DNA of 64,000 nucleotides, from positions 13,454,001 to 13,518,000 of the forward strand of contig OX344764.1 in NCBI GenBank assembly GCA_947034895.1, written 5' to 3'. A program made the translations under genes and the position numbers. This stretch comes from Rhytidiadelphus loreus (taxonomy: Eukaryota > Streptophyta > Bryopsida > Hypnales > Hylocomiaceae). Position 1 is the stretch's first letter; each line of letters opens with the position of its first letter. The notes beneath the pieces are model-generated. The model saw only the letters and a list, made by a program, of their open reading frames with translations. It did not search any database and was not told where the DNA came from. Shown here piece by piece: positions 8,690 through 44,162 of this stretch.

Positions 8690-9658
8690 GCGTCATTCAG
8701 TTTGCCGTGCTACTCCGCCCAGCTTGCTGAAGTCTGCTGCATTGTTGTGTTTGCCTAGCTTCCTACAGCCTACTGCATTGCTGCCTCCGCCCAGCTTGCT
8801 GAAGTCTATTGCATTGTTGTATTCGCCTAACTTCCTGCAGTCTGTTGCATTGCTGCCTCCGTCCAGCTTGCTAAAGTCTGTTGCATTGTTGTATTCGCCT
8901 AGCTTCCTATAGTCTGCTGCATTGTTGCCTCCACCCAACTTGCTGAAGTCTACTGCATTGTTGTCTCCGCCCAGCTTCTTGTAGTCTGTTGCATTGTTGT
9001 CCATGAACTGCACCTCCGTTTCCCGTATTGATGTTGCACTAGTCTGTTGCACGTCATCCTCTTCAGCCATTGATGATATTGCAGGTGTTTTGTCAATTGC
9101 TTCGTAGAAGCCCTCTAAAATGCTTTCATCTGGCGAGGCAAATATCGCTTCTTCTAAACCACTGTTGTATTGCCCAGCGTCGAAGTACTGCCCAACGTCG
9201 AAGGTAGTGTTTGCGTCTTCTTTTCTTTTCTGTTGGACTGTTTGTTGCTCTGTGCTTGCGTTTGGACTGATCCAATCGCCATTCTTGGTCACTTTTAAAT
9301 CTATGGGTTTCGCTATTGTCCTTTTGGTATCAGTGGTTGCTCTTCCTACGACCCTCCGATGTCGATCAAGCTTGTAAAAAGTGCCGTATAGTAAAGCTTG
9401 CATGTCCTCATTGCGCTCATTCATTGCATCTAGTTGTTGGTTCTCTTCAATTTTGTCGTTGAGCACTCCTTGGACTATCCAGTTGAAGCTATCGGGAATG
9501 TCATTGTCATTAGTCTCTTCTTTAACGCTCAAGTCTGGTTCGATGTAGTCTTCTTGACTTGATCCCCAACTTCGAGGGGGTACATATTTGCTAGTGGTGT
9601 TGTTGCTACTACTGCTAGAGTCCTCTTCAAAGTCTTCTGCAAAGTCATCCATGACCAT
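8690..9658 (-). CDS. Unknown acidic protein with C-terminal 12-residue tandem repeats
   Basis: A 321-codon ORF beginning MVMDDFAEDFEEDSSSSS. I do not recognise the N-terminal 215 residues, which are acidic, Ser-rich and contain a basic segment (KLDRHRRVVGRATTDTKR). The C-terminus has eight 12-residue units alternating NNAxDFSKLGGG and NNAxDYRKLGEY, a 24-residue higher-order period. It lies just upstream of the pogo-type transposase on the same strand and may be a second ORF of that element. After the TGA (8690-8692) the same frame stays acidic (WDSDADEETTEVSSK), so the stop could be a nonsense mutation. A chance ORF is unlikely given its length and composition, but function is unknown. Confidence 0.5.
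8700..9010. repeat. 36/72-bp coding minisatellite
   Basis: Eight 36-bp units, alternating in two types so that the true period is 72 bp, encode the repeats at the C-terminus of the unknown acidic ORF. Reading frame is kept across all units, which suggests expansion under coding constraint. Confidence 0.8.
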
Positions 9659-9659
9659 A

Positions 9660-10694
9660 CCCTACAAAAAGCGACAAAAAAATCCATCCCCATACCATCA
9701 ACAATTGTTTGCATGAAATTGCTTGTAATAATCGACAGAACTTGACTTGCATGAATTCTAATACCTTTGATACTTGCAATTAGTAAGTTAGAAACTTGAA
9801 GTGCAAGTGGGCAAACTAACCTTTAAAATCAGGTGAAATGCTCCCAATGCTTCAATCTAAATTGCTAGAATGTACGATGTTGCAAATCCTTACAAGTTTA
9901 CCAAATTGAAATGAAGTTGAAGGTTTTCCTTATCATCAAGAAGTTCCAAATGAGTTTGTCACTTTCCACATTTCAATTCCCACTAGAGGAGGTTGCTCTA
10001 ATTTATTGTGTAATTTTGTATAAAGATTCTTTAATGTCAATTTGGGCTCATGGAGTGCTAAAAGCCGTCATTTTCCTTGTTAATAATTGTTGGGCAGTGC
10101 TCATTAAAGTGGACTTTACTTCAATGAGTTAGTCCCATAGTGCACTCAATCAAATTTTCAGATTTTTTAACATCCATATGAAGGTTATTCACCTACCAAA
10201 TATCATTTTTGAAAATTCTATGCATACGTGGCCATTGGCATTGAAATTGGCCAACTATAGCTCTTATTCCATCCATTGTGGAAGTTGGAAACAATCGTTG
10301 AGAAAGTTGAAAGCAACCTGACATCAGCACTAGTGTATTTACAGACCACCATGTAACCATTTTAGGACTATTTATTGTCCATTACAAAGCTTAAAGTAGG
10401 GACTGTTTGAAGAAGAGGGTTGCAATTATAGCCATCTACCTTACTGTAACTTACTTATTGTACTCAAGATTTCAAAGTGTTGCATCAACCTCTCAAGTCT
10501 TTGACCCTTTATAGGAGGAGACTAAAAAACAATTTGGGCATTAAGAACCACCTTTACAAAAGTGCCCAAAATAGTGCACATGGATGTTGAAATGGAAGTG
10601 ACTTTGTGTGGTGAGAAACTACCATTCCATGTGTGTGGTTTTAGGGTATTGAGCAAGTGACATGGTTCACCATCGTGTGTGATTTTGCTCATAA
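9660..10694. other. No gene seen
   Basis: AT-rich sequence; short ORFs have no recognisable motifs. No inverted or tandem repeats noticed. Confidence 0.4.
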
Positions 10695-13082: not shown

Positions 13083-14613
13083 TTAACCCTTGAAGGACCA
13101 TCACTAAACTTTCACCAAAAACGCTCCAAAACTGCCATTTCTAGTACAAGTACCAAAATTTTGAAAAAAACTTTTTTTGACATATTTAACCGTAGGATCT
13201 TGTATTATATAGTATCAAAAACATATGGTAAAAATTTCAAACATTTCCACCGGGTGGATTGCAAGATATAAGCATTCAAATTAACTAAAACCATTTTTTT
13301 TATTCTGTGAAAAGCAGGGCAGCTGCACTTCACAAGCTCACATTTCTATGAAAAAATGACCTAAATGGTACTGCTTCTTTAGATTTGTTTTCCTAGACAA
13401 GTTGGCCACATGCTTGAAAATTTTCAGATCATTTGGAATAGTACAACATATAGGAAAAAAATAGTAAGTAGGTAGTAGTAGAGAATGATTAAAAATACTA
13501 AATTATTTACAATTTAAATATGGAATTGAAAATTTCCAATCCCAATGGTCGAAATGTTGTAATAATGTATCTACATCCTATAATTTTATTTTTGTCCAAA
13601 AATACTGAAAATTGGATAAGATAAAGGATTTCAAAGATTATTTAAGAGAAAGAAATCCAAAACTGCCCGCAAACAAAAAATCCTCATAACTTTTGACTCA
13701 TTGATCAAAATGGAATGATTCAAAACTTTTCGTGTATATAAACCCCTAGAAAATCAATTCCAAATTTTTGTTTCTGAAAAAAGTGAATTCTCTTAAATCT
13801 GCCCGAACTGCCCTGTCAGTGAAAAAAGTAACATATTGGGTGTCAAAGCAAAAATTAACAACCCCAATAGGATTGTCAATTTTATTGTAGTATAGTAGCA
13901 AAGGTTCGTTCACAGGGAATTTTGCCATAGATTGGGAAAGATTATGAATAAAATACAAATTATATAAACCAATCACGCAATAAGTCAAGATAGCCAATAA
14001 ACACCAAATCCAATCACTGGATTTAACAAAACAACCAAAAATCACACCCAGTATCACACACACACAGAGCAACAAAGACAATTAGTCATCAAAACTAGAT
14101 TGATATTATTTGAAGGAATTCATAATATAGTAATAGACACAAAATCTACACACCAAAAGAAAAAAAACTAAGTACATAAGGTCTGGTGAAAAATGACAAA
14201 TTGTCCAAATATATGAAGAAGAAGATCAACCGCTTGAATTGATCCTAAGACAAATTGCCACCCTTCTAATCTTGTCAAATTGACCTTGTTCGAATCTAAT
14301 TTGTAAGCCCTTTTCATATTAGTGTGAACTATTTGACAACTTGTCTCTTCACAACTAAATGAAAATGATTTGACCCTTACAAAAAACATTAAAAGGACAA
14401 AATGACAAATTATGTAAAATTGTTTTGACTACATTGGGCCATAACTTTTGACTCGTATTTCCAAATGTCATGAAATTTGGTGCATATGAAAGATATTCCT
14501 CGCCCCCACATTCTATTAAAATTTCAGCCCCAAATATGAAAATCTCCGCTCGTATGTACCTGCCCAAAATTTCTATACAGCCAAAAAACACAGTCCGGTC
14601 CTTTAGGGGTTAA
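13083..14613. mobile_element. TTAA-flanked piggyBac-like element, copy 1, interrupted by an LTR
   Basis: Bounded by TTAA on both sides, with termini CCCTTGAAGGACC and GGTCCTTTAGGGG. TTAA target duplication and CCC/GGG ends are the piggyBac signature. It is close in sequence to the copy at 55839-56773 over its full length, except for a 598-bp insertion (LTR plus target duplication) at 13841-14438. It carries no transposase, so it is probably moved in trans. Confidence 0.75.
13841..14433. mobile_element. Solo LTR with 5-bp target duplication
   Basis: The 593-bp insertion begins TGTCAAAG and ends TTTTGACTACA, that is 5'-TG...CA-3' with short inverted ends. It is flanked by TTGGG on both sides (13836-13840 and 14434-14438). 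The paralogous element at 55839 is uninterrupted at the same point, where ATTAGG stands for ATTGGG, and so provides the empty site. No internal retrotransposon region is present, so this is a solo LTR left by recombination. The superfamily cannot be told from the LTR alone. Confidence 0.85.
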
Positions 14614-17560: not shown

Positions 17561-18300
17561 CAACAACGAATATGAGGTTTTGTGATCTCTAGACATCCTA
17601 CTAGACATTTGATGGACCAATTTGTTTAGAGTTAGATGTGTTGCTTTTGAATTTTTTATGGTTATCAAAATATTTGTAAGTGAATTAGTCACTAAAACAA
17701 TTCTAAGGTGAAGGATGATCCTTCAATTTATACAAGAAGGCCTTATTCGTTAAATTGAGACAAAATGGTCTTTTTGAGACTTTGCAAAATGAAGAGCGAA
17801 GATCATTGAAATATTAGTTGTTGAAGTCAACACTAAATGAAGCACGACTAACACCAATCATAGAGTTTTGTAGCAGGTGCCCAAAATAATTGCCTCCAAG
17901 CGAGACAAGTACAGGAACAATCGGAAAACAATTACTCGCAGAAATTGTCCTAAATCAAGCAAATTCCATTTAAATTCAATAAGCTCGAACTCCTCGAGGT
18001 ATGAAGAACACAAAAAGTATATAAGTCTTGCCTGCACAAAATGGCACCCAAATGGTATGAATTATAAAGTGCTCAATCTATCAATAATGCCGGTCTAGGA
18101 ACGGAGAGGCTCACTATACATAAGGCACTCTTGTTTCCACCACGACTTTTTATGGACTATTTACGTTCATTCTATTTATAGTAAGAGGGACAGAGGATCC
18201 CAAGGCATCCAGAATATTGCCCGTTGGCGTTACGCATCGGTGTTGGCTATGTCTTTGCTCTTCGTCGCCTGTAACGCTTTCAGTTTCGCTAGTCCCTTGA
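17561..18300. other. No gene seen; possible left flank of the palindrome-marked element
   Basis: AT-rich until about 18100, after which GC content rises into the palindrome-marked region. No terminal inverted repeat or target duplication could be identified here. Confidence 0.3.
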
Positions 18301-18418
18301 AGATATCGTCGCGTCGAGAATGATGGTGGGGCCCACTCTCACCGTCCACTCCCATGCAGACGCCCGCACTCTGAGATCCACTCCCCTTATGCTTCAAATT
18401 GCGAAAATTTCGAGTAAC

Positions 18419-19144
18419 CTAAGAAGTGGAAGGCGATCTAGACCCAGAAGGAGGCGGCTTCGGGAGGAATGCATTCACATCGCCTTTGTATGGAGGCCTA
18501 CTTCTAATCGATATAGAGTGCAAAGAGCGGCGTTGGTCCCTAATAACCCTCTGACGGAAAATGGAATCGGTGGAAGGTTGTCGTCTACCTCCAGCGAACG
18601 CCGAAGGCCGAGGCGGATTATTCTCGAGCCGAAGTAACTGAGGTCTAACCGTTGGACCAACTTGTTCGCTCTTCGTGTACCCTCCCGAAGATGACATCCA
18701 CATAAAATCTCTGACGGGAACAGACCGAGGCACTTCAGAGCCCAGGAGCTTATCATCGACTCGAGGACCCACTGAAGTCCCGCCGACGAACAGGTTCAGT
18801 TTCCGGTTCGTCGCAGTGTCTACTCACGAAGCTGGCGAGAACGACCCTCTTCGAGTCGACGATGTTTGCTTGAGCGGGGACGGGGAGGCAACGGGCGTCC
18901 GTCCGTGCCCGCGATTGGGAGGACTATCCACGACACCGTCTTCAATGTCCCCCTTGGAGTAGTCTATAGCGGCTGACGTGGCGTCAGCGGCTGAGCGCAA
19001 TATGTATAGTTTGGACACCGGCGCGGGTCCGCAGCTCCCTCCTGCCGAATCCGAGCCGTTGGAGAGCGACCTTTCCGACCTGGAAAGCAAGCTTCTAGTG
19101 AACCTCCGCTTGGGTGTTGGCAAATTCAGATTAGGAGCCCGAAC
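18419..19144 (-). pseudogene. Probable last exon of the ParB/FCP1-like gene, with one nonsense codon
   Basis: One minus-strand frame runs from an acceptor (CTTCCAG before 19144) to a TAG near 18419, open except for a TGA at 18824-18826. The encoded segment is basic and Ser/Pro/Arg-rich (NLPTPKRRFTRSLLSRSER, then SGGYTKSEQVGP, PPSGSRSPSTS), with no recognised domain. The stretch 19145-19395 upstream is T-rich and intron-like. A phase-0 donor in the preceding exon would join them, but no strong consensus donor is obvious, so this may be a separate downstream gene. Two palindrome copies (18751, 18846) lie inside this frame. Confidence 0.4.
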
Positions 19145-19395
19145 CTGGAAGTAGCACATACTCAATTACAAGAGACCAGTAGACAATATCCACCAAAGGA
19201 AGAACGGCAAGGGAAGCAGGTAAATAGTAATCCAAAAAGGAAAACCACAGAAAGAAACAAGCCGAGCGGGAATGCGAAGACATAGAAAAGCTAGGTCCAA
19301 ACTGAATATATTATTTACAAAAGAACACAACATACAAGATTATAAAATACAAAACGTAATTATTGTTCGGCGAACATGGGTTCTACTGCGTTACT

Positions 19396-22300
19396 CTACG
19401 TTCTACGACAGCCTCTTCCAATGACCAAATTCATTGCCGGCAGTTCGTAACGGGCTCCCACGTTGTGTGCGGATTCTCTCATGGCATCTACAATTCGCGC
19501 GTGATTGTAGTCCCTAGCAACCAGGGGCTCGAGCCCAATCCGGTTGGCCTCTACGTACTCTCGCAGTCTTCCCGGTTGGCAGTCCGAGATGAGACGCCGG
19601 AGCCACGGCAGGAGGTCTCCCATGAGGAAGTTGTCCCTCCGCTTGGTGTGACTCCAAGTTTCGAGAATCACGGTGTTTCCCCTCTCATTACAGATCCCCT
19701 TCTCGGGGGAGTCATCGATGAGGAGGGTGTTCTCCACAGTGAAAGACGTGTCCCCGCTGGGATTCATGAACAAGGTCTCGAACAGAACCTTCATGAAGAC
19801 ACCTTTGGTGCCAAAATGAAGAAAATTCCCCGGAGACACCTCTATTTTTTTGCACTGATCCTGGCTCAGCACATCGTAGGGGGCCCTGCCCCCGCTGAAC
19901 AGGTGTCTAGCAATGGGTTCCGTGTTCGACTTGAACATGGCGCTCCATACTAGCACCCTGTTCGCGATGTTAGAAACCTCTCGCAGGAAGCCCTCTAAAT
20001 TCTGTCGAGCGAATACAGCCTTGGGTCCGACGATGGTGGGGTTTCTATAGCAGAGAACTTTGTCTTCAAGTTGGTAGGGTTGGAATTTTCCATTCGTGCC
20101 ATACGCCCTGGTGGCGACTTGGCAGAGCATCCCATTCAAGTCGAAGACAATGTTCAGCCACTTCCTCCGCGGTAGGGGCACTAGAGGCACTACATTCCTC
20201 GGGACGACCTCTCTCTCGTCCTTCCATTCTACCTGATCAAGTCAAGACAACATAGAAATAGAGTTACCTGATTGAATGCAGAATCATGTGAGCCAGAAAA
20301 CGGGAGGGAGCAGTGAAATCCACTAATCGTTTGCTTGCTCCCTTTAGGGTGTGCTTTCATAGGCAGCGGACGATGCACGCTTTTATGTTTTTTGAGTTGA
20401 GCAAAAAAACATGGAAAGCAAAAGACAATTAGACTTTTGAGTCTGTATTTTGTAATTTCAACCGATATCTTTTATTTACAAGTGAAATATATTACATACA
20501 TATTTTTTTGATTTCATCTAGAGCCGCCAAAACTATACACTCATGTCTATGCTACACTAGTCTACACGCATTGCAGCCACAGACGGGTTCGCGTCCGCGC
20601 CCGATCAATCAGGGAGTGGCCACGCCATCCTGTCAGGCATCATGCATCCGAATGAGATTTCAGACCTATGAGAAGACTTCTGTTTCCACTCGCAAAACAA
20701 GACAATCATGCATGACTCTGCGTATGCGAGAGTCAATCAAAACTGTAAGGATCTGGTGGTTGTACCTTTGATAATTCCAGACCTTCTGGAACATTTTCCA
20801 CCTGCTCCTCGGCGGCCACTACTTCTACTTGTTGGCTTACATCTCCGCTGACGTCCTCTTCACTCTCGCCGTAGTCCACCTTCTCTTCCGAAGAACAGGG
20901 CGAATCCAACACCAAGCCGAACGGAGCAGTCGCAAGTGTCATCGGTTTTTTCGGCACCATTGGCAAAATGCCAAGGACGGCATCCCGCACAGGCTGCAAT
21001 GTCCCCTCAACAATATCGTCGAGTCGAGGATGACTCGACTCATCCTTGCTAGTGTCCTTCAAGGGAGAGGCGCGCTGTGTCTCCGGGATAACTTCAAACC
21101 TGGCTTGGTCAAGAGACGGCACCCTGTCCACCTGAGAATCAGGAGGTAAATCATGGACGCCTCCTGGTGGGGGAGGGACATCGCCAACCTTATCCTCGAG
21201 TCGAGGATAGGGAAGTCCCGAGACCAATTTTTCGACCTTGTCCACTTCAACCTGACTAGAGGAGGTCACGGGCGCCCGTTGTTGTGAGGCCTCGGAAAGC
21301 GAAGGGAGGACAAGCGAGCCTCCAGATTGAGACTGAATTGCGGCAACCAATTGCTTCAATTGTGTCTCGAGGGAAGAAATCTTGGCGTTGGACTCTTGCT
21401 GCACCTCGGATATTTTGGCATTCGCCGCTTGGTTGCACGCAACAGCCTCAGCAAGTTGTTTGTCTTTCTCTTCCCTCGCCTGCTGCCTCACTATCCTCCG
21501 CTTTCGGGCTTCCTCCTGGTGAGTCCACCAATCACCCTCGACCTTGACCTTCCCGTCTGATAGGAGGATTGGTTTTTTGTTGGGTTTCGGGGGCATGCCT
21601 TCGACATCGTCTTCGTCGGAGGAATGTGGGCGATCTATGTCATCCTCGTCACTGATGTCGATGATCTCTGATGACTGCACCTTCCATCGTTTTTTAGGCG
21701 GGGAAGCCGGGCGTTCCAGTGGTAAATCATTACCACCTGCCTCTCTTGCGTTGCTTGGACGCATATCCTGCAACGGAGGCTCAACTTCCCTTCTTCGAGT
21801 CAGAGTTGAATGTCGACGCACCAGTTTGTCAAACTCACTGTCCGTTTCCACGTCCTCCTCACGAACAAGTGCCTGCTGCGCTTCTGATGGCTCCCCATGC
21901 GCACCCGATTGGGTCCCTCTAGACTCTGATGGGGCTCCCTGAGACCCAGATGGCACACCATGCACCCCAAATGGATTCACCTGTGCAGCTGAATGCTCCC
22001 CTCGCGAGCCTGCAAGGCCTCTTGGAGACCTAGGTCGTTGTTGTTGCAGTGCATCCGGCACAGCAGGCGAGTTCATCCACATACAGACCTGGAACGTATT
22101 TGTCCCAAATTCGTCTATGCCCTCCACGCCAGGATCATTGGTCAATTGTGGGCCAATGGCTTCTCTCTCTCGCTGCCTCAGTGCTGGGATATCGGCTGGT
22201 GACTCGTAGGTGGGCAACAGTGACGGGGGTGAATTAGAGTTAACCACCACCGAAATACGACTGGGCGGTTTGATATACGCCAGTGAATAAGGCGAATTTG

Positions 22301-25300
22301 AAAACATGAAATCATTCATGTCCATTTTATCTGCCAGATAAGCAATTTTGTGGTAGCTCCTCGCATCATCCCTGTCGCAGAAACCATAAAAATACGCTCC
22401 GAACATCTGATACAAAGATCACAATGAATTAGTAACTGTGCCAAAGTTAACAAGATGTCCTATCCTCGAGTCGAGGATAAGTCGGGATCTCCATTACTGA
22501 CAATTGAAAAGGTCAGGAGACACTGAAATCTATTATACTTCTCTACATCAAACGTTTCCATATGTATCCTCGAGTCGACAATAAGTATTCTTCATGTTAA
22601 GAGACGAACCTTGGCGGCCAACATAAATTTCGGCCCGCAGAAGAGACCACAGACGTTCTCTTGAGGTGCCGCAAAATCCTGGAGGATTTGTAGGTAGAAC
22701 TCCATCCTGAGTTCTTTCGCGATGATCCTCCACTTCGCCTCCGTGTTCTTTGACACTTCATTGTAGTATTGGCAGTTGTCTGGCGTTTCGTATTCACGCT
22801 TCACACAACCCCAGACTGAAGTGGCAAATTCATTGTCCTTGCGAAACAAGAACAACCGAACAGGAGAGGAACGTCGTCAGCTATGTTGCGATTTGTGCAG
22901 TTGTCCAACATCTCTGCCTTAGCTGGCACGTAAGATGACTACACGCAATCATAGTCCTTCAACTTGTAGGCCACGAATTTTATAGCAGCCTTCATGTCAA
23001 CCTTACTGTGCAAAATGAAGAGCCAGACTAGTGGCTCTGACATTTTCGGCTCCATAACGTCTGAGAGAAACTTGAGCAACGGGTCAATTTCAACTATTTT
23101 GTTGGTGACCTTGCTCTTCGGATACTCTCTCACGTCCAACAACGCCAAATAGATCTCACGTTGCTGGTACTGGTACTGCGTACTGGTCACCAATGCCTTT
23201 GCCGCAATATCAATTCCCTTGACCTGCACACCTCCAGCTGGCTCTGGAAGCCTGTACTTCAGTCGCATGAACTGAGAGAACATATGAAGGACCTCGGGAA
23301 AATTCTTCCCCAGATCTTTGGTTCGTTTATTCCAAGCGTCGTTTTGAAGCCTCTTCTTGAAGTATTCGTTCTTCGGGTGCGAGATGAGGAAGTCCCATGA
23401 CGCGGATGTAAACCTGTGTCACGCTTTCCAGGACTTCCATGTCCTTTCAATGACATCTCCCCCATTATCTATTAGTTTCAGGGCGGTTTTGATGGCTGCG
23501 AGGTCTTGGATGACCACTTTCTTTCTCTTCCTTCGTTCCACCCAGTCCCCAGCAGCCATGTTATCGGGGACTAGGATTTTTGTCTTGGACACGGACACCT
23601 TCGGATATGTGGCTATCCGTTTAGGCGTCTCACCGAGCAAGTGCTGCGCAAATACTCCGTAGTCCTTGTCTGTGAAGTGTCCGCAGTGACGGAAGAACTC
23701 TCTCTTCAGAGACATTGCTTTCCTCTTGAAGCCTTTCAGATCCTTGAATTGTAGCCCAGTTATAGGCTCAATTAACTCACCCTCTGCATGCTTCGTGAGG
23801 AATCTCTCCCAAAACGCGAAGAGATCATCGGGTAATGTGATGATCTGAATTTCGTTCTTCAGATTGTTCAGACTTTTTACACAGGCTCCTTCTCTTCCTG
23901 GGTTGAGGTTCTGATATCGATCGAGAACTGCAATGGTGAATTCCTGCACGACAAATATATTCACGAGTATTAGGAGTGTTCAGTTCTGTGACATTCATAA
24001 AAGACATAGTATCCTCGAGTCGACGATACCTGTTAACCCACAATTTTTGACCAACACACTAATTTGTAAAACACTCTATGTCCCACAACTGTTCCATATG
24101 TCCATTTATCATTGGCTCAAACACTGGTACTATCGTCGACTCGACGATACTGAAAAATTATTTCGCCTCACCTCATACTTCGCCAAGTCGTATACTGCTT
24201 TATTACTTCGGGTCACCGCCTCTGTTGCTACATCTGTGGCTCTCTGGCAGGTCAACCAGATATTCCGAAGGCTGATTATCTGATTTCCCCATGTCGGCTG
24301 GGCATGGTCAAGGTGATTTGTGCAGTTGTAGAACTTGGAGATGTTCCTTAACTTGTTAGGATTCAAGGACCACACAATCCAAGCGTCCCAGGTTTGGAGC
24401 TCTACCCTCCTAGCCTCACCGCACCCTTCCTTCTGAAGCTCTTTTGAAGCGGTTACGCTATGCTGGCCATTAATTATCATGAATTTTCCAGTTCTTATGT
24501 CGTCCCATTTCTCCGGCTTCCTCTGCAGCAGCTCATTATTTAGATCCACAGGAGTAAGACATAAAATTTGACGCTGCTTTTTGTGCCCAAGTTCATTTTT
24601 TACTAACTCCACTATGTCAGTCTGCAGTGTGCGAATGATGTACTGGTCTCGCGCTATTATACACTGCTTGATATGGACCTGTACAACCTCTTGGTCTAGA
24701 AGGAAGCAAGACTTGTGATCAGTCCAGAAATCTCGTTGATAGATGGCAAACTTTTCGTGCTCTTTCATTTTCGACTGTGATGTCGACGGTGTTGCTTCTG
24801 CTGTCGTCAGAATCGACCCCGAACTTCCTGCCCCGGCAGTTCCACCCGGAAGGTTTGATTTTCTCCTCTTTCTACTTGATTCTCCTAGTTGTTGTTGGAG
24901 TGAATCCCGCTGCCTAGGTTGGGACAACGCTTGTGATGGTCTAGTTCCGCGACTGCCCTCCCCTGTACGCGCAGAAGGAGGTTGCTGCCCAGCATCTGAT
25001 GCTCTCTTCGTTTCTTTGGACTGATTCCCACCCACGGTTGGGAGAGGAGAGATATTTGTTAACGCGTAATGGTCTAGCGTTTGCCAAATTAGTCGCAATC
25101 TACTTACGTTGGATTTGGCAGTGCCGTTCCTCCAAGGAACGTATCCACATTTTTCAAACTCTTCGTTCAAGGAATCCATTTCGGATCCCTCTAGGAAGGT
25201 TATGAGGTTTTCTAGGTCAAACTTGCCGTGGTAAGCATTGACGTCTATAACGATAGAGTGACAGTGCTTTCCTAGGTTCCCAGCATCGTCAACATCGCGT

Positions 25301-25587
25301 AGGACTATGATGACGTAGTTGCTCTGGTAATCGTCAATTAGGATGACCTTCTCTTTCATGTTCCACGGGAGGTATTGGGTTTTTCCCTGAGCTCGATATC
25401 GTAAATATACGTAATTCTTCCAACGGCTAACCCCGAAACTCCACGTACTGATGTGCTCTTTTAGTTGCCATAATTTTCCATAGGTGGCCTCCATTTCAAG
25501 CAGGAATGGTTCATCGTCAATGGGGTTGTTGAATGGCTCGAGGTGACATTCAGTCACAGAGTAGTTGTACTCATCTGCAGTCGCCAT
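19396..25587 (-). CDS. ParB/DGQHR-like and FCP1/NIF phosphatase-like fusion protein (lightly decayed)
   Basis: Exons 24172-25587, 22610-23943, 20766-22406 and 19396-20232 join in phase at GT-AG borders, giving about 1,740 residues. Exon 1 has an NLS (RKRRK, 239-243) and, at 310-385, a segment ending FMIINGQHSVTASKE, which resembles the DGQHR/GxxRxxA box of ParB/Srx-fold proteins; it is followed by ISKFYNCTNHLDHAQPTWG. Exon 3 has an acidic SUMO-binding-like motif (EIIDISDEDD), Gly/Ser repeats and a coiled coil. Exon 4 is an FCP1/NIF-type HAD domain: DLNGM, VLVWSAM, LLIDDSPEK. The second Asp of DxDGT is Asn. Exon 2 is unrecognised and carries TGA (23419-23421), TAG (22939-22941) and a likely 2-bp CT insertion near 22870. 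An alternative in-frame intron may exist at 25021-25107. The domain calls are motif-based inference. Confidence 0.6.
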
Positions 25588-25604
25588 TGCTTGATTCCTG
25601 TTTT

Positions 25605-25829
25605 CTGCAAGTTTAGATATATTCTTAGTACATTGAGATATCGTCGATTCGAGGATAGACTTTGTAGGATGCTATGTACACTATATAATCGCTTCCATAA
25701 ATGGTATTGGGTGTAGACTGACAAACCTTTAACTGAACTGAGTCTAATTGCACAAATCTACGTGGGTTTAGAGTAATGTATGTATGTTATCTATGTTGAA
25801 TGGAATATTTTTATGTTATTCGAACTTAC
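25605..25829 (-). other. Putative 5' leader intron of the ParB/FCP1-like gene
   Basis: Read on the minus strand, a GTAAGTTCG donor at 25829 and a TTGCAG acceptor at 25605 would place a spliced leader 17 bases before the ATG at 25587. One palindrome (25639) lies within. Support is from splice consensus only. Confidence 0.35.
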
Positions 25830-26329
25830 TTGCTTTTTGTGTTTGTAATGTATCATCGAGTTGACGATAGGTTCTGCTTTGTTTGGTATTAAACGATTTT
25901 CTAGGCCTTCCGCGTTTGTTATTTTGTTCTTGACTTCATTTTCTATTGTTTTGAGCAATGTCATCAATGACTTGTTGGTTCCTAATTATTTGATGACAAT
26001 CTTTGTTTCTGGTCATTATTTTGTTGTGTTACTTTTTTTTTGAATTGTTGTTATCTTCGAGGCGACGATAGACTCTTCATATGTCCCAATATTAGTGTAT
26101 CGTCGAGTCGATGATAATCCTTGTCAATGTGCAAGAAATTTATCAATTGATCAGAAACCCTAAATTCACAATATCAAACAACTCTATTTTCCACATAGAT
26201 GAAGGTATTGCAAGGAAAAGTAACTACCACATTTGAGACAGGGATTAGAGTATTCTTTATGTATAATATTGAAGAACTAATTGAACTGAAACCCTAAATC
26301 CTTCATTTGAAACCAAAATTGAATTTCAA

Positions 26330-26755
26330 CAAACTTGAACACAAATTCCAGCAACAGTTCACAAGAATCAAAAATTGTAAAATGTAAACCACAAGCAACA
26401 AGCAACAATTGCACAGTGCAGAAATAGAAGCGGGAGAAAAGAATAGAAGAAACAAAATTCACAAGCACGACCAAATCCTAAATCCGTATTCAACAATCGC
26501 AAAACTCAGAAGTGCACAATGCAGAACTAGAAACGGGAGGAAGGACCTTGAGAACTTGAAATTCACAGGCACACTAACTAAACCCTAAATTCCTATTGAA
26601 CAACTGTACAAAGCAGAACTAGAAGCAGGAAAAAGGACACTAAAAACTTGAAATTCACAGACACACTAACTGAATCCTAAATCCCTATTCAACAATTGCC
26701 CAGTGCAGAACCAAAAGCGAGAAAAAAAAAAAAAAATTGAAATTCACAAACAAAC
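26330..26755. repeat. Tandem repeats of about 91-103 bp, four units
   Basis: Units are anchored on GCAGAAMTAGAAGCGGGA at about 26418, 26521, 26614 and 26705, each followed by AAATTCACARRCACACTAAC and a CCTAAATCCCTATTCAACAA phrase containing a telobox-like CCTAAA. This block lies between the two divergent genes. Confidence 0.7.
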
Positions 26756-26769
26756 CTACTACCTTAACG

Positions 26770-27290
26770 ACTTCACCTCGCAGCTTGCAGGTCGCACCTC
26801 GCACCTCGCAGACCCTCGCACCTCGCAGGTCGCACGTCGCACCTCGCACCTCGCACCTCGCAGCTTGCACTTGGACCTCGGAGCTCAGCAACGTCGCAAT
26901 GCAGGTACCCTAAACCCTAAGCCTCCCAAGCCTTCACCAAGAGAATTCACCCTAAGCCTCGCAAGCCTTCATGAAGCAAAGCAGAACTCGCAGCGCATCC
27001 GACTCCCACCGCAAGAACTCGCAGAACTCACAACGCATCCGACTCGCAGAACTCGCACCCCTCGCAGCGCATCCAACTCGCAGCGCATCCAACTCGCAGC
27101 GCATCCAACTCGCAGCACTCGCAGCTCCTCCGACTTGCAGAACTCGCACCCCTCGCAGCGCATCCGACTCGTAGCACTCGCAGCTTCTCCGATTTGCAGA
27201 ACTCGCAGAACTCGTAGAACTCGAAGCGCCTGAACTCGTAGAACTCGCAGCAAAGCAAAACTCGCAGCAAAGCAAAACTCGCAGCGCAAC
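26770..27290. repeat. GC-rich low-complexity tract of CTCGCA repeats
   Basis: First (26775-26880) a degenerate CGCACCTCGCAG-type 10-12-mer, then (26990-27290) repeats of CGCATCCGACTCGCAGAACT. Overlapping ORFs on both strands (Arg/Ser-rich on plus, Cys/Leu/Arg-rich on minus) are products of the repeat. It sits upstream of the minus-strand gene and may be a 5' region or an expanded minisatellite. Confidence 0.75.
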
Positions 27291-27299
27291 ATGGAGTTG

Positions 27300-30200
27300 C
27301 CAACAACGTACGCAAAACACAGCGCATCCGAATTCCGAGGAGGGAGAAGACTCTCCAAGCCTACGCCGAGCCGCCAAATCATAGCCGAAGCAAATTACCG
27401 AACCTGTGGCCGAACCCGAGGCTGAGCCCCGTTTACCGAAGCCGAGGACAAACCTTGCCGAAGGTAATTACGAAACATAATCCCCAATCCCCATGTGCCA
27501 AGTTTAATGATGAACTGGAAACTTACGAAAGCAAACTTAAACAAAGCTTACTAAACCTATCGAGCTTCAAACAAAATGCTTTGAATAGAATGAGGCACCT
27601 TTTGGAGAACTGGCACTATAGAGCCAGATTTCACCATTTAAAAACATTTGTGTACTTTTGACCAGGTAAAAGTAAAAAAAAATTGCCTCAAATTTCCTCT
27701 TCGTATTCAAAACGTGGATGAATTTGCCAAATTTGCATAAAGAAATACATGAGTAGGAATGAAAAGTATTTTTGGGTCCAAAACATGGATGAATGTAGAA
27801 ATACAGTGCTACCAATATAACTCGAAGGGTAAATTGCAATTCTTAAAAAGTGTACAACTTATAGTTTGTACTACTTCCAACAAGGTAAGTATACCTAAAA
27901 TAGCACAAATGAACTATTCAAATGGTTTTTATTACTGTATTGGACAACTTTCTTTATACGATGGTCATTGTTTCACTGATTGTAGATTCTTTTAGAAGGC
28001 ATTTTTTTTTTAAAATTAGAAGGAACTTTGACGTTCTGACGTGTTGAAGAAAGGCGTTCATAATAGAGATCATAGATTCTCAGAAATTGTTTATTTGTGC
28101 AAATGAATTTGAAATTAGCTACATTTGGATAAATAACATACCACTTTAGCATGCAGGACAAGAAAACAAGTATTTACAGTCCAAAAATTTGTATGACAAG
28201 GAGATCTCTTGTACATATCATTCGCGTCCAATACGTGCTTGAACAATATTTTCAATGAACAATGTACACTTCAATAGAATTATAGATCATTACTACTCTA
28301 AAAAAACTCGTCATTGGAAGGTCTACATATTACATGTAGGGTTGGCATTGTGTGAAAATTTGAAAAAATTTGTACTTTTATTTTTAGGAACCAAATAGTA
28401 AATTTTTAGTTGCTAATTTTAGATATTGAAAAATTATTATTGCAAATTTTAAAAACAATCATGAACTTAGAGATTTATAAATGAATAGAAATTAATTCCA
28501 TGTGTAAAATAATTCCACGTGCATGATGAGCAAGCTTTTAGTATGAATCTTTTTTAATTAACTTCTAAAGGATTTTGAATTTTCTGGGATTCCCATCTCC
28601 TTCAAGACACCCAAAAATCATCCATTTCATGGAACAAATGTAATGAACATAAAAAAAATGATAGACACAGGGTTTAGGCGTCCTGTTTACTGTAAGACGC
28701 TTTGGTGTTCTATTTTTATAAAATTACAGAGCATGTCTCATTGTTTTCATGTTTTATCTTCCAAAAAAAAATGATAGAATTATAGTGTACCCTAAACCCT
28801 TACAAAATTGTACTTGTGCCAAACGTTTAAAACTTTGACATATTTATGTGAACTTGAATTCCTTCTAAGTATGTGACTTACAGAGAAAACCCTATTGTAA
28901 GTTTTGCTAAGATTGTAGAATTAAATTACAAAATACTATCAAAACAATTCTTAATCGAAGAAGACGTTGTACAACATAAATTGTTTAAATTCAAAGAATT
29001 TAGAAGAGTTTGATGTCATGACCATTGAACATTACTCTTATTTTCTTCTTTAATTTAAAATAGAGAGGACCTTTGGAACAACCCTAGGCTATATAGTTCA
29101 CTTAAAGTGGATATTATGTACCTTACATGAAGGGTGTAGGAAAAACTTTAATTTAGTTTGACTACGACATTGAAATAATTAATAACACACTTTGTACAAA
29201 GAAGTAATCATGTTTAGTACTATTAAGGCATCACAATCCATGAGTTGAAGTATAACTCACTTCAAAGTGCACCATGATTGTATTAGGACATTGCAATTAC
29301 TTATGGTCTTTGCAATTGTGACCATTTCTTTATGTCATAGTGATAATGGATCCATGCTAGCACACTTGAAGCTATTCTTTAATGTGTGTTGTTTAAAAAA
29401 CAGTAAATACAAGTATGGTCAATGTTGAAGAAGTCACTCTAAAGTTCTTAAAAGTAAGACCAATTAATTTTTTTTTATCTCCATGATAATATTGTTCTTG
29501 AAAACCACACTAATCCTTTTTTAATTTTTTTCTAGAAAATTATAAAAATTGTTTCAAAATTTTTTTTGTGCAGATTATATTTTCAATAACAAGCATACTT
29601 TGCCCTGAAAACTAGCATTGCCCATAACATTCCTATCACTGGTTTCAATATACATAACCAAAGCTCTAATTTTGAAAAGCAAGAACAAAATTAAAAGGTA
29701 TTATGACTTTTTCCAATTGTTCACTACTAATAAACACATACAACCTTTACCTCATGTAAATAACTTCCTCAACTTCTTGTAATCATAAATATGCAACCTA
29801 TTCCAATTTCTGGGACCCACCTTGTAACACGTATTGTATGCCATGTATTTTTGGACTTCTGTTTCTACAGTACCAGTCATAGAAATATTCTTTTTACATC
29901 AGGATTAGGAGGTACATCACAATAAATATTAGCATTACCTTATTTGATCATGGACCCTCCATCTCAAGAATATTTAGAATTTATTCCTATTTCTTTGGCC
30001 TCTGCTGACACACATATTACATGCCATTAATTTTGTTCCTTGAATTTAGAAACTACAAGTCATGGTTTAATTCCTTCAACACCAGTATTACATAGTACTG
30101 ATTTTAAAATACACTTCAGTTGGTTTAAATACATGTAGAAGTTTTCAATGTTTAGGAGCTGTACAGTTTGTGATAGAAATCATTTCAATGAACACTATTG

Positions 30201-31060
30201 TATTTGGTTTCCAAGGTGAATAACTCATGAACATGAAAGTCCATACCTTATAGTACAAAAAATCAAATGTATTTAATTCATATGAGGAAGAAGAGAAAAA
30301 AAATATTAGTTATAAGATGTAGAGTTCAATGCATTACCAAATTTAGTTTATTGAACACTACTTTGAACCCTAAACTTATTACTATGTACGCATCTTAATT
30401 ATTCAAAAATGAATCTATAGGATGAATATTGTAATGCAACTTTTACAATTTTGCGAAAAACATTGTTACAGAAGGTGAGGTTCATTTGAACTATAATTCT
30501 CTAACTTCATGCTACACACATGAACTATTAAACTTTAGGGTGAACTTTGAACACAGTTGTACTTATCAATTCTTTGAATACTAATTTCTTTCCTAATGTT
30601 TCTTTTTCATCCATTTTCACTAAATTTCTCAACCGAAAATCACATGAACTTTTCAAGCTTTTCTTAGTCACAAATTTTGTAGATTCCACATGCAAGAATA
30701 GAGTTCAAAGATATTCATAGTTTTAACACCCTCAGGATAAAACATTCTAATCCTTCAACCCTTAAATGATTTAGTGGTGTGTTTTCTTTTCCTTTGAGAT
30801 CTCAAACATGTCTACTTTAAATTTGTAAGGTTATAAGTTTTTTTAAATGACACAACATACCAAATAGTTGTCTTGTAGTCGAATTTAGAGCAAATTCTTT
30901 GAGGCTCAAAACATATCTTGGGCATTTAGGGGTAAAATAGGCCAAACAAACATGATTTTAGGAAGTTCTGCTTTCCTTGCAAAAGAAATTTTGTATTTTA
31001 GAGAGTCACCTAATGGAAAAAATAAAATCGGAATATAAGAGGTCAAAAACCGAAAACCGT
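27300..31060. other. No gene seen
   Basis: AT-rich and free of long ORFs, of the 19-bp palindromes, and of recognisable transposon ends. It separates the two palindrome clusters and could be an insertion or long intergenic region. Confidence 0.4.
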
Positions 31061-31145
31061 AAACCCTGAAGACCCTAACCCCTAATCCTAAAAATCGTAA
31101 AGCCTAAAGCCTAAAGCCTAAACCCTAAATGCATACCCACTTGTC
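31040..31145. repeat. Degenerate CCTAAA/CCCTAAA telomere-like stretch
   Basis: Several short words (GAAGACCCTAACCCCTAATCC, AAGCCTAAAGCCTAAACCCT) resemble the plant telomere repeat CCCTAAA in degraded form. It is too short and irregular to be a telomere; telobox-like motifs also occur in plant promoters, which would fit its place upstream of the plus-strand gene. Confidence 0.4.
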
Positions 31146-31741
31146 TAAAACCCTGAAATCATGGTGAAAGGCTAAATCTGAAATAGACAGAATCGAAAGA
31201 AAGCACTCCTAAAAGGATGGCACTTTTTCATTTGTGTCCAAAAAAAAGAAAAAGGATGTTACTTTTTTTTTAATGCTCTGACAGCGAAGCGCATCTCCTC
31301 GAGGTCAACGGAATACGGAAATGGAGGGCAACTGTGAAGGAAAGGAATCTTTTTTTATTGTATTCTTGTCCAAAAGTCTTCAAAAGCGCTCCCGAAAACG
31401 GGAAGCATTTAATTATTGGTGTCAGTGCAAGTGCATGAATTAGTCGTTAATATGCCGTTGATTTCTACAAATTTTGAATTCTAAAATGTTGGCGCCCATT
31501 CTTTCCCGCCCTTCCTACGGTAGAGATTCCTAGTTTCTATTGGGTACCTTCATGCTACGCCCTTGAATTCGCTTTGGAACCGCGCACCTGAAGTTCTTCT
31601 CCTCATTTTCTTGCAGCTCGAGCACTTGCGGACACCACGTTTTCTACTTATTTCACGAGAAGTCTTTGTTTTTCTGTTGTTGGTTATGCAGTCTGTGGAG
31701 AGCTCTGGAATACCTCCTGTGGTCCTTCATTCTCAGAGCTA

Positions 31742-33038
31742 GTAAGTTGTATTTTGATTTTGGCTTTTACACAGTACTAATCTTTGTGTACATGTTTCTG
31801 CTTCGAGTCGTTTCTGCAATGATCCTATGTTCATATTTGTGATGCAAGTATTTGTCTGTTTGTAGTAATGAATGAGTTTTTGGACTTGTGGTATGGAATG
31901 ACGATGTGTGTGTGAACTCTATTGCTTTGACTAGGTTTGGGAACTTCCGATTAATACGGCGGAAAATGCGGAAATATGTTCTATGTAATTATTATGTCTT
32001 GTATACACTGTATTGTCGAGTCGACAATAACACCATTCAGTCATGAAAATCTCAGAGTCATAGTTAAGTTGACAATACCCTTGAGCACCTAATGATGGAG
32101 GTTCATTGTAGAATCCAAGATACCCATTCTCCAACAAATTTTGGAGGGTTATCGTCGAGTCGACGATAAAACATTTCAATGGAATTCTTCGGGAATCCTG
32201 GATTTGATGAAATTCCACGTCCACCAAATTCTAAAGAGTATCATCGAATCAACGGTAGAAAATTTCTCACTAATAAAATTGTTCGGAATTAACTGTTTTG
32301 ATCGAGGGATTCTAAGTATGTATAATTTTTTGGATAATAATTATTCTGGAAATATAGTTTATTTAATTAATTCTCTTGCCAACAATAGTAAAATTCCATC
32401 CCTTTTATTTTAAGTTTTCAATGGAATCCCGGAATAGTGCTTTGCCATCACCTACTTCATCTTATCCTCGAGTCGAGGATAAGCTGGAGCTCTCCTTTAG
32501 TCAAGGACCCTAACTACATTGACATTGATGTACACTCCTTTAGTAAAACTATTGTGTTCAACTGCAATTGAAAAATCAATATACTAGACAGATATGTTGT
32601 TCTTGTTTTAATTGTGTTTAATTACTTGTTCTTCGAGATGACATGATGATTACTGGAATTGAGACATACACTCTTAGTAATGAAGATTAATGATTATTAC
32701 TTCATCCTTGACTTGACTATATTTAAATGGATTGTGTTGATCATGAAGTTCAGGTATTGTGCTTTAATGAAAGTCTCATGTCACGTAGGGAATGAATCTA
32801 ATAGAGTAATTGCCTAAAATTTGTGGTCCTCTGCTTTCTCTTTTCTACCTATGAATTTGAACTTGAACTCATTATCGTCGAGTCGATGGTATTGATGATC
32901 CACTAATCACATCAAAAACTAGTTATGACAAGTTTCAGTACAATTTGGAAAGAATTTCGTGACTTGCATTTTACATTTGCGATTTGTTTATCGTCGATTC
33001 GAAGATTAATCTTTCTAAAGTCATCTGTTTTTTTGCAG
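31742..33038 (+). other. Putative 5' leader intron of the DUF7869-like gene
   Basis: A consensus donor (GCTA then GTAAGTTG, starting at 31742) and a consensus acceptor (TTTTTTGCAG ending at 33038) lie directly upstream of the ATG at 33040. The preceding 31300-31741 is GC-richer, as expected of a promoter and leader exon. All six cluster-B palindromes would be intronic. Confidence 0.4.
32011..33007. repeat. Palindrome cluster B: 6 copies upstream of the DUF7869-like gene
   Basis: Copies at 32011, 32150, 32239, 32463, 32873 and 32989. Those at 32150 (TATCGTCGAGTCGACGATA), 32463 (TATCCTCGAGTCGAGGATA) and 32011 (TATTGTCGAGTCGACAATA) have perfect 9-bp arms; at 32011 both arms carry the same compensating change, so symmetry was kept. 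All six fall inside the putative 5' leader intron of the plus-strand gene. Confidence 0.9.
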
Positions 33039-33039
33039 A

Positions 33040-35835
33040 ATGGATATTCATGGACCTGATGAATTTGCGGTTCCAGTACCCATATTACCTCTTGGTGTCG
33101 TGGGCTGCGAGGGTTTGCCTCGGCAGTCCTGGATTACGAAATGCGTCACCCTACGAAATGAAGCAGGAGATGACGTTGCAAAAGGAGTTTGCCAAAGTGT
33201 TTATGTGGATCTTGTCATCGACAGTGATGGGAAGCCCCTAGGTGATGACCGTGTTGCAGTGCAAATTGCAGAGTCACTATGCGCGGCAGAAGTCTCTTCG
33301 GGGTGGATGTAGTCAATGAAGGCATGGCACATCAAGCAAGTGTTCTTGAATGGTATCAGTTTGTATGACCATGACCAGACACATATATACAATACGGCTA
33401 TGAATGCCCTGAACCGCCGCATTCGAGTTGGTGTACGTTCTTATGAGACGTCTCGGGAGAGGAGGGAGCAAGTCTTGCCTCCCAAAAAAGAATCCCTTCT
33501 CACTCCACAAGCAATTATTGAAGTGTCTACAAAACCATGTTGCCAGAAGAACTGCACACAACATTTCCCGCGTCACGAAATTGAGTCTATACTGTATCAA
33601 TTGCACGTGAAAGGTGGAGTGTATGTCCGCAAGCTTTGCCTTCTTGAAGCACATAGGCAGTCGCACAAAGACACTGCTGGAAAGGAATGGATAACTTTGA
33701 GAAACATTGATGTATGTCTCACTACGTGGTGGACCATCCATGGGATTTCAAAAGCTACCTTCTACAGGTTCAAGCACATGGCCAAAGAGGGGAAGGAAGC
33801 AGAGGCACATGGGAATTTGGGATTGAAAAAACCTTGTACACAAACTCTACAAGCGACCGCTACACTTCGGACGTTGATTGTAGGCGAAGCCGACAAAATG
33901 CCACACAAATCAAGAACACTAGATTCTGGGGAGAAAGTCCCTGCAATGGTTTTGCCATCAGCGTTTCATTGGAGTGAGCAACTTCCAAAAATCAACAAGG
34001 CTAATGAAGCATTCAATTTGCCTCCAATCTCCTCCAGTGGTTTAAGCAACATTCGGCGTGCATCTTTCTCTGAATATGCTGCAAAGGCTCACGGAGACTC
34101 TTTCTCTAGATGTGGTTTGTGTGATATGTATAAGCAGTTGAAGAGTGCTTGTACTCCGTTGTCCATTGCACAAGACAAATGGGCGAGAATTTTAACTACC
34201 CATCTTAGTGGGCAAAAGGCCCACAGGGAACTTTATTATGGATTCAGGCAAATATCTGAGGAATTCCCTGAAAAATTGTTGTGCATCATCCATGACAAAA
34301 TGGATCACTCCAAGACCGCCTCACCTCACTTTTCTCACAAGACAAAAGCAACTGATTCTTTTATGAAAATGCATGTGGCTATAACGGGTATGATTGCTCA
34401 CGGTCATGGCGATGTTCGGTATGCTCACTACGGCTTAGACATTTTTCCAACGGACTCAAATCATATTGTTGGATCTATTGCAAGGTTGTTGCGTGATCTC
34501 GAAGGAGAGCCCAAAAATTCATCGCGTACATTATTTTCAGAGGAGAGGAGTCAATCTACTTTAACTCATGCGTTGTTGGAGGGCTCAGACATTTGCTTAG
34601 ATTCTCTCCTTCCTCCTCCTGAAGAACCAATCCCTTTTAGGCCTCTGCCGCCGATATTGGCCCTCCAACTTGACAATGCCTCAGGGGACAACAAGAATCG
34701 ATGGGTTTTTGCTTTTTGCTCTCTAATGGTTTACAAAGGCATTTTCCGCGAAATATATATTAACTTCCTCATTGTTGGCCACACTCATGAAGACATTGAT
34801 GCTCTTTTTGGTAGATGGAGCACAATGTTGAAGAGCAAGGATTATCCTACACTTCCTAAGCTCATGAAATCTTTTATGGACTGTGAAACCCACCCCGTCA
34901 TTCCTCATTTCATTGAAGAAGTTCCTGATTTCAAGCAATTTGTGCAAGGGTACTTGGGTATAGGCGGGGATTTTTTGGAAAGTCATTCAACATCACAACA
35001 ATTCAAATTCTACATGGATTCAAGTGGATGGCCCTTGATGGAGTACAAGAACTTGTGTACAGACAAGGACTGGTTGCCACAACATGGTAGAGGAATTCGC
35101 TTATGGGCGGAAACTGAAGATGGGCGTCCCAAAGTGCCGAGCGGTTCTCCACCACCTTTGGCTCCCCAGCAAATGAAATCATTGGGAGAGATCAAAAAGG
35201 GTTTGGATGGTTTCATTGCACATTGGAACAGAATGGCCAACAACGAAGATTCTGGATCTTTTGGGTGAAAGAATGACCCCATAAAAGATTATTGGAAGGG
35301 TGTGAGAACCGCTCTAGATGAACCACTACTGGTGCGTGAGACCTTAAAAGATGGATTTTGGCCGGCTTCTAGGGTCACGGAAGCACCGGAAGACACAAGG
35401 CGAGAAGATGGCACGGTGCATGAAGAGTTTGCGGAGGATCCACCTTTTGTTGGACGCAGACGTGATAGACCTAGACCTTCATTCCGTATTGCACGTGATG
35501 TATTTGCAGGTTATTTTGTGGTAGTACGTCCCGCTCATGAAGATCCAAAGCCGTTTTGGTTGGCGAGGGCGCTGACAAATCCGAATCCAGATCCAGGGCA
35601 TATTCATCAGATCCAAATTCAATATTGGACACCTATTTTTGGTCGTCACATTGATTTGGATACATATGCTGGATGGGACACAAAAGCAGGGAATGTGTGG
35701 CGTGAGGACCGTGTCATCCCACCGTGTTGGTCAAATACGGACTGTATAATGACAGCTTTTAAGCCACGTAGAAAAAGGGGGGCCGAAGATCAACCCCAAG
35801 TTATTACAAAAGTTACAATTCTAAAGCCGTAGATC
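33040..35835 (+). CDS. DUF7869-like protein, probable RNase H-fold transposase-related (two nonsense codons)
   Basis: A single frame runs from ATG 33040 to TAG 35833-35835, about 930 residues, interrupted only by TAG 33310-33312 and TGA 35266-35268. C-terminal half motifs are HDKMD (418-422), LQLDNASGDNKNR (from 542) and VGHTHEDIDALFGR (from 579); the last two match the signature of DUF7869-type proteins, common in repetitive families of non-seed plants, algae and invertebrates. Spaced acidic residues (Asp419/422, Asp545, Glu584/Asp585) resemble a DDE/RNase H-like site; that is inference. The N-terminal half includes CCQKNCTQHFPR, possibly a metal-binding Cys/His cluster. A consensus splice acceptor sits one base before the ATG. 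Divergent partner of the ParB/FCP1-like gene. Readthrough or mutation could explain the stops; mutation is likelier. Confidence 0.65.
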
Positions 35836-36733
35836 AACATCATCAAATCATCAGTGGAGGCCTTTGTGTCTAATTCAAGCAATGGTGCTTCCTCGGTTGG
35901 AGAAGAAGAATAGTTTGTAGCTATGTTAGTCAGTGAAGTATTCTTGTTGCCATGATTGGGACAAAGTGACAAACTATGAATTTTGCATGTTAACATTTTA
36001 AGAGATTTGCAAGTATATGTTGTGTAGACAATATTATGATATTATGGCCATGTAAAACTCTTCATTTCTATTAATAGTATATTTTCATCCTGCATTAAAG
36101 TATAATGCATTCACATTTTTTTCCAACTTCTATTTTGTTGCCAATCATGAATATGAAAAGGAATGTATTGTTCTACAAATATGTAGATTAGTATTTTCTT
36201 CAAGGTATTTTCACACAAGGTACTCTCAATTTTAAGGAAATGTTTTACTTTAAGTATAATATCTTCATGTACTTTATTTCTGTGCTTATAATGAATTAAA
36301 CAAATCAAAATGTTAGTTGTTAGTTGTAGCTCCTTTTTTTTAAAGTACCTAAACAAATAAAATAGTGTTTTGACATTTTTGAGTCTCAATTTATTGAACA
36401 GTCTCAATTTAATGAACACTAAATGCACTCTAAATATAGAATAAATTAAAATGAGACTCAAACTTGTCTCAAAATAATGAATAAGGCCTTCAAGATCAAG
36501 GTGCATGAATAGATCCTTGGTACATGTGCAATTTGCAATTGAATGAGTGTGGTGCAATGGTTTGTGTGCTTAGGTATCTTAGGGTAGCATCTAAATATAG
36601 TAATCTATAGGTTTATGGAAAATTCCATTGCTTGGAAGGCCAGTTAGTACACACTCCCCCTCAAACTCTTCTAGGGGTGTTTTTTACCACGCCATTGAAA
36701 AACACTCATGTAGGGGACTAGATCTTTAAAGCA
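35836..36733. other. 3' flank of the DUF7869-like gene; no further gene seen
   Basis: AT-rich sequence with possible polyadenylation signals. No terminal inverted repeat matching the left side of the palindrome region was found. Confidence 0.35.
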
Positions 36734-43794: not shown

Positions 43795-43932
43795 GATTTG
43801 CTTGAAATCGGTTAAAGATGTTCCATTAAGATTTTGATTTTATAACCACTCCCCTCTTGTTTCTGGGTACCTCTTGGTGACGAGAGGAACCCCCTAGAGA
43901 CTGAGAAAAATGAAAATGAAAAAAAAAAAAAA

Positions 43933-43967
<35 letters not shown>

Positions 43968-44075
43968 TACTCGCGGTTAGAGGTACCTCTCGGCGCCGAG
44001 AGGTAAACCAACAACAAGAGAGGAGTGGTTATAATCTCAATGGAACAACCTCAGTCGATTTCAAACGAATCGTAA
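43795..44075. repeat. Nested foldback with A15/T32 loop and central palindromes
   Basis: Arms at about 43795-43890 and 43982-44075 are inverted copies (ATAACCACTCCYCTCTTGTT in one orientation, its complement in the other). The loop contains A(15) at 43919-43933 directly followed by G and T(32) at 43935-43966. The transcript could form one long hairpin. Slippage-prone; the homopolymer lengths may be unreliable. Confidence 0.7.
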
Positions 44076-44162
44076 TTAATAATCATTTTTTTTCTTTAAA
44101 GTTCAATAAGTAGCACATCAACTTGAAGATAAGTGCTTGATCCTCCTCTCGGCGCCGAGAGG
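43985..44162. repeat. 20-bp perfect palindrome ACCTCTCGGCGCCGAGAGGT, repeated
   Basis: Perfect copy at 43985-44004, an 18-bp perfect copy at 44145-44162 (CCTCTCGGCGCCGAGAGG) and a decayed copy at about 43870-43889 (ACCTCTTGGTGACGAGAGGA). Each is followed or preceded by CAACAAGAGRGGAGTG. This palindrome family is distinct from the 19-bp TCGA one and lies inside the long-TIR element. Confidence 0.85.

Follow-up and report, generated by a model that had tools for sequence, protein, structure and literature searches.

An 18,754-bp DNA transposon of the moss Rhytidiadelphus loreus carries 19 copies of a 19-bp palindrome in and around its two divergent genes, here called gene A and the DUF7869 gene, and the sequence of these copies has been kept by selection. 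We lean towards the explanation that the palindromes are recognition sites for the predicted ParB-like product of gene A, which would control the expression or chromatin of the element. The transposon lies at 17737..36490 of a 64-kb window (C4:13454001-13518000 of the 407-Mb genome scanned), and all coordinates below are those of the window. Sites were defined by the pattern TATCNTCGANTCGANGATA, i.e. TATC-N-TCGA-N-TCGA-N-GATA, with positions 5, 10 and 15 free (N form) and up to three mismatches allowed. This pattern matched the window 19 times, eight times exactly and always within 18304..33007, against a mean of 0.15 and a maximum of 1 in 100 shuffles, while a stricter S form of the pattern gave 17 matches. 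The count bears out a sequence-only reading of the window, which had placed 19 copies in one region and none elsewhere in the 64 kb. Its claim of several perfect palindromes with differing arms was confirmed as well, six copies (21191, 22461, 24131, 32011, 32150 and 32463) having perfect 9-bp arms in four distinct sequences. Chance or low complexity as the source of the palindromes is excluded by the shuffles and by the genome-wide count given below.

Six close genomic copies of the region were fetched, four being full length, one truncated (C4_2.99) and one having no recognised left end in the fetched stretch (C1_32.41). The full-length copies end at the same points as the window copy, in 27-bp terminal inverted repeats (TIRs). 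The left TIR (17737..17763, plus strand) has no or one mismatch in four of the six fetched copies, and the right one (36464..36490, minus strand), which matches the left at 24 of 27 positions, has no mismatch in any of the six. Perfect 4-bp target-site duplications (TSDs) flank all five full-length copies, the window copy included: CAAG in the window (17733..17736 and 36491..36494, both plus strand), and CTTG, TGAG, ACAT and ATCA. Therefore, the region is a TIR DNA transposon with gene A and the DUF7869 gene in divergent orientation. The sequence-only reading had overlooked this, as it had the intronic position of most palindromes. The window copy, with in-frame stops in both main genes, is probably decayed. 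A viral origin was dropped, no gene A or DUF7869 relative having been confirmed in viral contigs; in these contigs the S form had no match, and the N form occurred in eight of them with one exact site each (one or two per stretch at up to three mismatches).

The full-length copies, which are 91-97% identical, hold 18-19 palindromes at mostly identical places. Among six copies (the window and five of the six fetched ones, leaving out the truncated C4_2.99), divergence was 0.041 at the fixed palindrome positions, compared with 0.119 in the flanks and 0.110 at the N positions, and 17 of 18 palindromes diverged less than their own flanks (p 2.3e-5; site 18304 fell outside the aligned piece). Because the fixed positions diverge less than the flanks, selection has kept the sequence at base resolution, and the palindrome is a selected part of the element with positions 5, 10 and 15 free within this family.

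Splice sites were predicted from GT/AG signals and homology, and on this basis 14 of the 19 palindromes lie in inferred introns, two in an open reading frame (ORF) and three in unassigned sequence, at 18304..18322 (three mismatches), 18751..18769 (two) and 18846..18864 (three). The pair within the ORF (21014..21032, one mismatch; 21191..21209, exact) falls in a long frame for a low-complexity protein (20733..22418, minus strand), a probable later exon of gene A. Two introns on the gene A strand hold two sites each: the one at 22407..22609 contains 22461..22479 (exact) and 22565..22583 (one mismatch), and intron 1 of the coding region (23944..24171) contains 24010..24028 and 24131..24149 (both exact), the latter at the same position in gene A relatives. 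Another four sites lie 5' of the gene A ATG, probably in a leader intron, at 25639..25657 (exact), 25851..25869 (one mismatch), 26052..26070 (one mismatch) and 26098..26116 (exact). The remaining six occupy the inferred 5'-leader intron of the DUF7869 gene (31742..33038, plus strand; GTAAGT donor and TTTGCAG acceptor): 32011..32029, which departs from the consensus at two positions yet is perfectly symmetric, 32150..32168 (exact), 32239..32257 (two mismatches), 32463..32481 (exact), 32873..32891 (one mismatch) and 32989..33007 (one mismatch), the last directly 5' of the DUF7869 ATG. The DUF7869 relative P0060 likewise has a palindrome shortly before its start; it is one of two N-terminally extended relatives picked among the 120 listed, the other, P0148, probably being a false pick.

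These positions bear on the possibility that the palindromes serve as binding sites of a DUF7869 transposase during transposition. DUF7869 is the likely transposase, and each of the 20 DUF7869 loci that were cut out has palindromes upstream, those of a second subfamily included. However, the palindromes are internal: the first is 567 bp inside the left end, and on the right none comes nearer to the end than the last one, at 3.48 kb. They concentrate around gene starts and within introns, not at the termini. Terminal or subterminal transposase sites are disfavoured by this arrangement, and we regard a role in transposition as unlikely.

The sequence-only reading had further proposed that symmetry is kept while the sequence drifts, through compensating changes in the two arms. 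In 26 copies (21 from the window and five from L001, a contig with a distant gene A relative; up to five mismatches), 195 of 234 cells were paired between arms, whereas shuffling gave a mean of 190.8 (standard deviation 2.7) and 179 of 2000 shuffles reached 195. Moreover, the sole truly variable pair, 5/15, was symmetric in just six of the 19 window copies. Compensation within the window was found neither by the pairing shuffles nor by the 5/15 counts: what is kept is the sequence itself. Between families the picture differs. The 5/15 pair is C/G in L001 (5/5), L010 (7/9) and L012 (8/13), G/C at 37 of 78 sites of the second subfamily (ten loci pooled) and T/A in L056 (10/17). The 57 exact sites listed on C1 comprise 38 CG, 7 GC, 6 CC and 6 GG (Fisher p 0.006, the sites not being independent), and ten of ten exact frame-1 peptides of gene A relatives, including that of the L001 protein, have a symmetric 5/15 pair (Fisher p 0.008, these copies not being independent either). 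Correlated arm changes, which the sequence-only reading had proposed to look for, do not exceed chance inside the window, and appear between families and among exact C1 sites. Its idea of sites for a dimeric protein keeps its footing in a sequence that is two-fold symmetric, conserved base by base and placed near both genes, and loses the argument from compensated drift within the region. The same data weigh on a function as intronic RNA hairpins acting in splicing or RNA stability. Such hairpins would be in keeping with the intronic location of 14 of 19 sites, with the one site that starts 20-30 bases past the donor in each of the two gene A introns, and with the ability of the palindrome to fold on itself. 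By contrast, the low rate of 5/15 pairing (6/19), the conservation of the arms within the family without covariation and the two sites within an ORF speak against hairpins, making this explanation very unlikely.

Genome-wide, the palindrome was found at 4587 places with up to two mismatches, against a comparison figure of 5, and the listed sites are strongly clustered. The figures for the exact C1 sites and for both genes derive from listed matches and are lower bounds: at least 68 DUF7869 matches (scored among 1943 candidates) and, with 88 of 1046 candidates scored, at least 89 gene A matches, the two genes being physically linked at 37 or more of the 68 listed DUF7869 copies. Each of 20 DUF7869 loci (the window and 19 others) has two to eight palindromes upstream, including loci of the second subfamily (84-87% identity), where the palindromes stand at different positions. 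Palindromes are found beside relatives of both gene A and DUF7869, a link that the sequence-only reading had proposed to test by a genome scan. At two loci, L010 (C1:437856), which adjoins a DUF7869 relative, and L012 (C1:1555589), the palindrome occurs in 40-44-bp tandem arrays with 9-13 sites per 3 kb. The arrays and the altered positions in the second subfamily could be taken as signs of a self-propagating miniature element, as the sequence-only reading had also suggested. However, full-length copies have their sites at largely the same positions, and the arrays repeat a unit longer than the palindrome, as expected of tandem duplication, so that self-propagation appears highly improbable.

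Gene A relatives extend the association. L001 (CADCWO010000074.1), whose gene A product is 38% identical to that of the window, has five palindromes, of which four precede the ATG and the fifth lies in intron 1, where the window has site 24131. This contig is filed in a cyanobacterial metagenome-assembled genome yet looks eukaryotic; because it contains an intron-bearing gene A relative, it is probably a contamination of that genome. Among 41 relatives whose translation continues into intron 1 for 12 residues or more, 30 have a peptide compatible with the palindrome at no more than one base of difference (1.09 when shuffled), and 15 have an exact palindrome peptide (0.09 when shuffled). For this count 27 of 89 relatives without a located donor were dropped, as were 21 of the other 62 with tails shorter than 12 residues; donors were assigned with a regular expression, which misplaced them in some rows (the tail of P0002, cut after its own site, is counted as short). 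The relatives also help to judge whether the palindromes are host transcription factor sites captured as intronic enhancers. Most palindromes lie in inferred introns, many stand 5' of start codons, and their ends read TATC/GATA, all of which such a capture would accommodate. Nevertheless, the fact that L001, a foreign contig, carries the same 19-mer beside its gene A relative, together with the strong clustering of the listed genomic sites, renders a host-factor origin comparably unlikely to a role in transposition.

The candidate binder is encoded by gene A. Its first coding exon (24172..25604, minus strand; ATG at 25587; exon ends from GT/AG signals and homology) specifies an N domain with a weak PH/PTB-like match, a low-confidence linker and a ParB/sulfiredoxin-like domain with the sequence FMIINGQHS. 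An exon 2 region (22939..23943, minus strand), found by tblastn with L001 exon 2 at 37% identity, contains an in-frame TGA at 23419-23421; L001 exon 2 itself gives a sub-threshold winged helix-turn-helix match (E 0.13). A CTCGCAG-rich tract lies at 26740-27300, between the two genes and upstream of gene A. Structure modelling predicts that the gene A product has the ParB-CTPase (ParB/Srx) fold, the comparison speaking for the families that it listed. Sulfiredoxin, a small enzyme not known to be associated with an element or a palindrome, has the same fold and is present in plants (6ky4, from Arabidopsis), with lower Z values of 5.6-6.6. In the accessible text of one paper, sulfiredoxin is the commonest eukaryotic ParB-fold protein, and plant, moss, transpos and palindrom are not among the words occurring there (PMC12704722).

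We reasoned that a selected, two-fold-symmetric sequence spread over both transcription units would most simply be the site of the element's own predicted ParB-fold protein. A dimer would recognise the palindromes as DNA, each subunit contacting the half-site TATCNTCGA; the binder would be the gene A product through its predicted ParB/sulfiredoxin-like domain; it would bind in and around both transcription units; and binding would switch the element's own expression or chromatin, as an autoregulator like KorB or as an anti-silencing factor like VANC. In a possible but more speculative extension, the system would be the eukaryotic equivalent of ParB-parS or KorB-OB, in which a nucleotide-switched ParB-fold clamp may load at the many palindromes, slide, and keep the element transcribed or free of methylation.

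Several observations weigh against binding by the gene A product. Binding is proposed from sequence and a predicted fold, and the ParB-like model has middling confidence (mean predicted local distance difference test score, pLDDT, 71; predicted template modelling score 0.41), with only one Foldseek row passing E 0.001. The gene A sequence family has no credible sequence match in Pfam, NCBIfam or the PDB, and no DNA-binding (helix-turn-helix) or C-terminal dimer domain was recognised among the exon 1 matches. The ParB phosphate motif, GERRxR (PMC11790492, accessible part), was sought as GxRRxR and occurs in none of 31 sequences, all 31 of which have NGQH; NGQHS appears to occupy its place. Eleven of the 41 read-through relatives, which are not independent of each other, show no palindrome: a clade of six (P0024, P0046, P0047, P0180, P0185 and P0188), two distant relatives (P0050 and P0051), the near misses P0044 and P0056, and P0005, in which a possible site is interrupted by the end of the tail. 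The form of the motif does not follow gene A divergence simply, being near that of the window in L001 (38% identity) and shifted in L056 (48%). Finally, the palindromes could instead be bound by DUF7869 or by a protein of the host.

The DUF7869 gene (33040..35832, plus strand; PF25273, E 8.7e-44) encodes a putative, and likely the element's, transposase, interrupted by in-frame TAG (33310-33312) and TGA (35266-35268) codons. D327, D330, D453 and D495 are invariant in 20 DUF7869 proteins. The core of the model has a pLDDT below 50, Foldseek returned no match at E 0.001, and assignment to a DDE fold was dropped since the model was too poor. Relatives with a species name among the 120 listed come from Ceratodon purpureus and Physcomitrium patens, and a literature search gave no match for DUF7869. 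The element also contains a NIF/FCP1-like phosphatase ORF (19396..20241, minus strand; PF03031, E 1.1e-8), aligned in five of the six fetched copies. A ParA partner was absent from the Pfam matches of nine scanned ORFs, no search having been aimed at ParA, and the same scan of window ORFs matched no methyltransferase domain in Pfam.

Elsewhere in the window, minus-strand ORFs encode a ribonucleotide reductase large-subunit fragment by Pfam (1759-2829), which we take to resemble plant enzymes, a DDE_1 (PF03184) transposase-like protein of another mobile element (6670-7974) and a protein with a 24-residue tandem repeat near its C-terminal end (8693-9661). Direct repeats are found at 13083-13840 and 55839-56598 (92.5% identical), with a further pair at 14433-14613 and 56593-56773. 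Foldback-like stretches at 43733-44121 and 57647-58037 each match their own reverse complement at 70-72%.

Known elements offer partial parallels, which we take from the accessible parts of the papers cited. Sola transposons have 4-bp TSDs, exceed 15 kb in some cases and have been reported in moss (PMC10741241); the present element is a candidate member by TSD, size and probable host. ParB-like accessory proteins have been noted in transposons of Ectocarpus and of red and green algae, among them the 21.5-kb Sola1-1_Ec32 of Ectocarpus, which encodes a ParB-like and DNA methyltransferase protein opposite its transposase, and whose authors suggest that proteins of this kind may bind the element encoding them and modify it (PMC12477816). 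Sola1-1_Ec32 and the moss element are both large and have a ParB-like accessory gene on the strand opposite the transposase. By contrast, the Ectocarpus protein has a methyltransferase domain and the accessible text names no binding site for it, whereas the moss element offers candidate selected sites (PMC12477816). On plasmid RK2, KorB is likewise a ParB-fold protein with palindromic operators (OB) on the mobile element that encodes it, whose genes it controls; it differs in being bacterial and in having a GARRYR motif and a known DNA-binding domain, where gene A has NGQHS and none was found (PMC11790492). In the VANC/VANDAL system of Arabidopsis, a short motif similarly lies in non-coding regions, introns too, of the element encoding the binder, with arrays in some families, but the VANC21 motif is 9 bp long and non-palindromic, and VANC targets diverge fast (PMC5735166, PMC10398659). 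The moss motif, on the other hand, is palindromic over 19 bp and has been conserved between proteins that are 38% identical. The four palindrome strings tried in a literature search were not found in any paper. In the moss element a defined candidate binder is encoded beside a defined candidate site, which has been under selection at single-base resolution and persists in a distant relative, so that binding, nucleotide dependence and an effect on silencing become directly testable. Alongside VANC/VANDAL, it may represent a second example of an element that specifically recognises itself, here through a palindrome.
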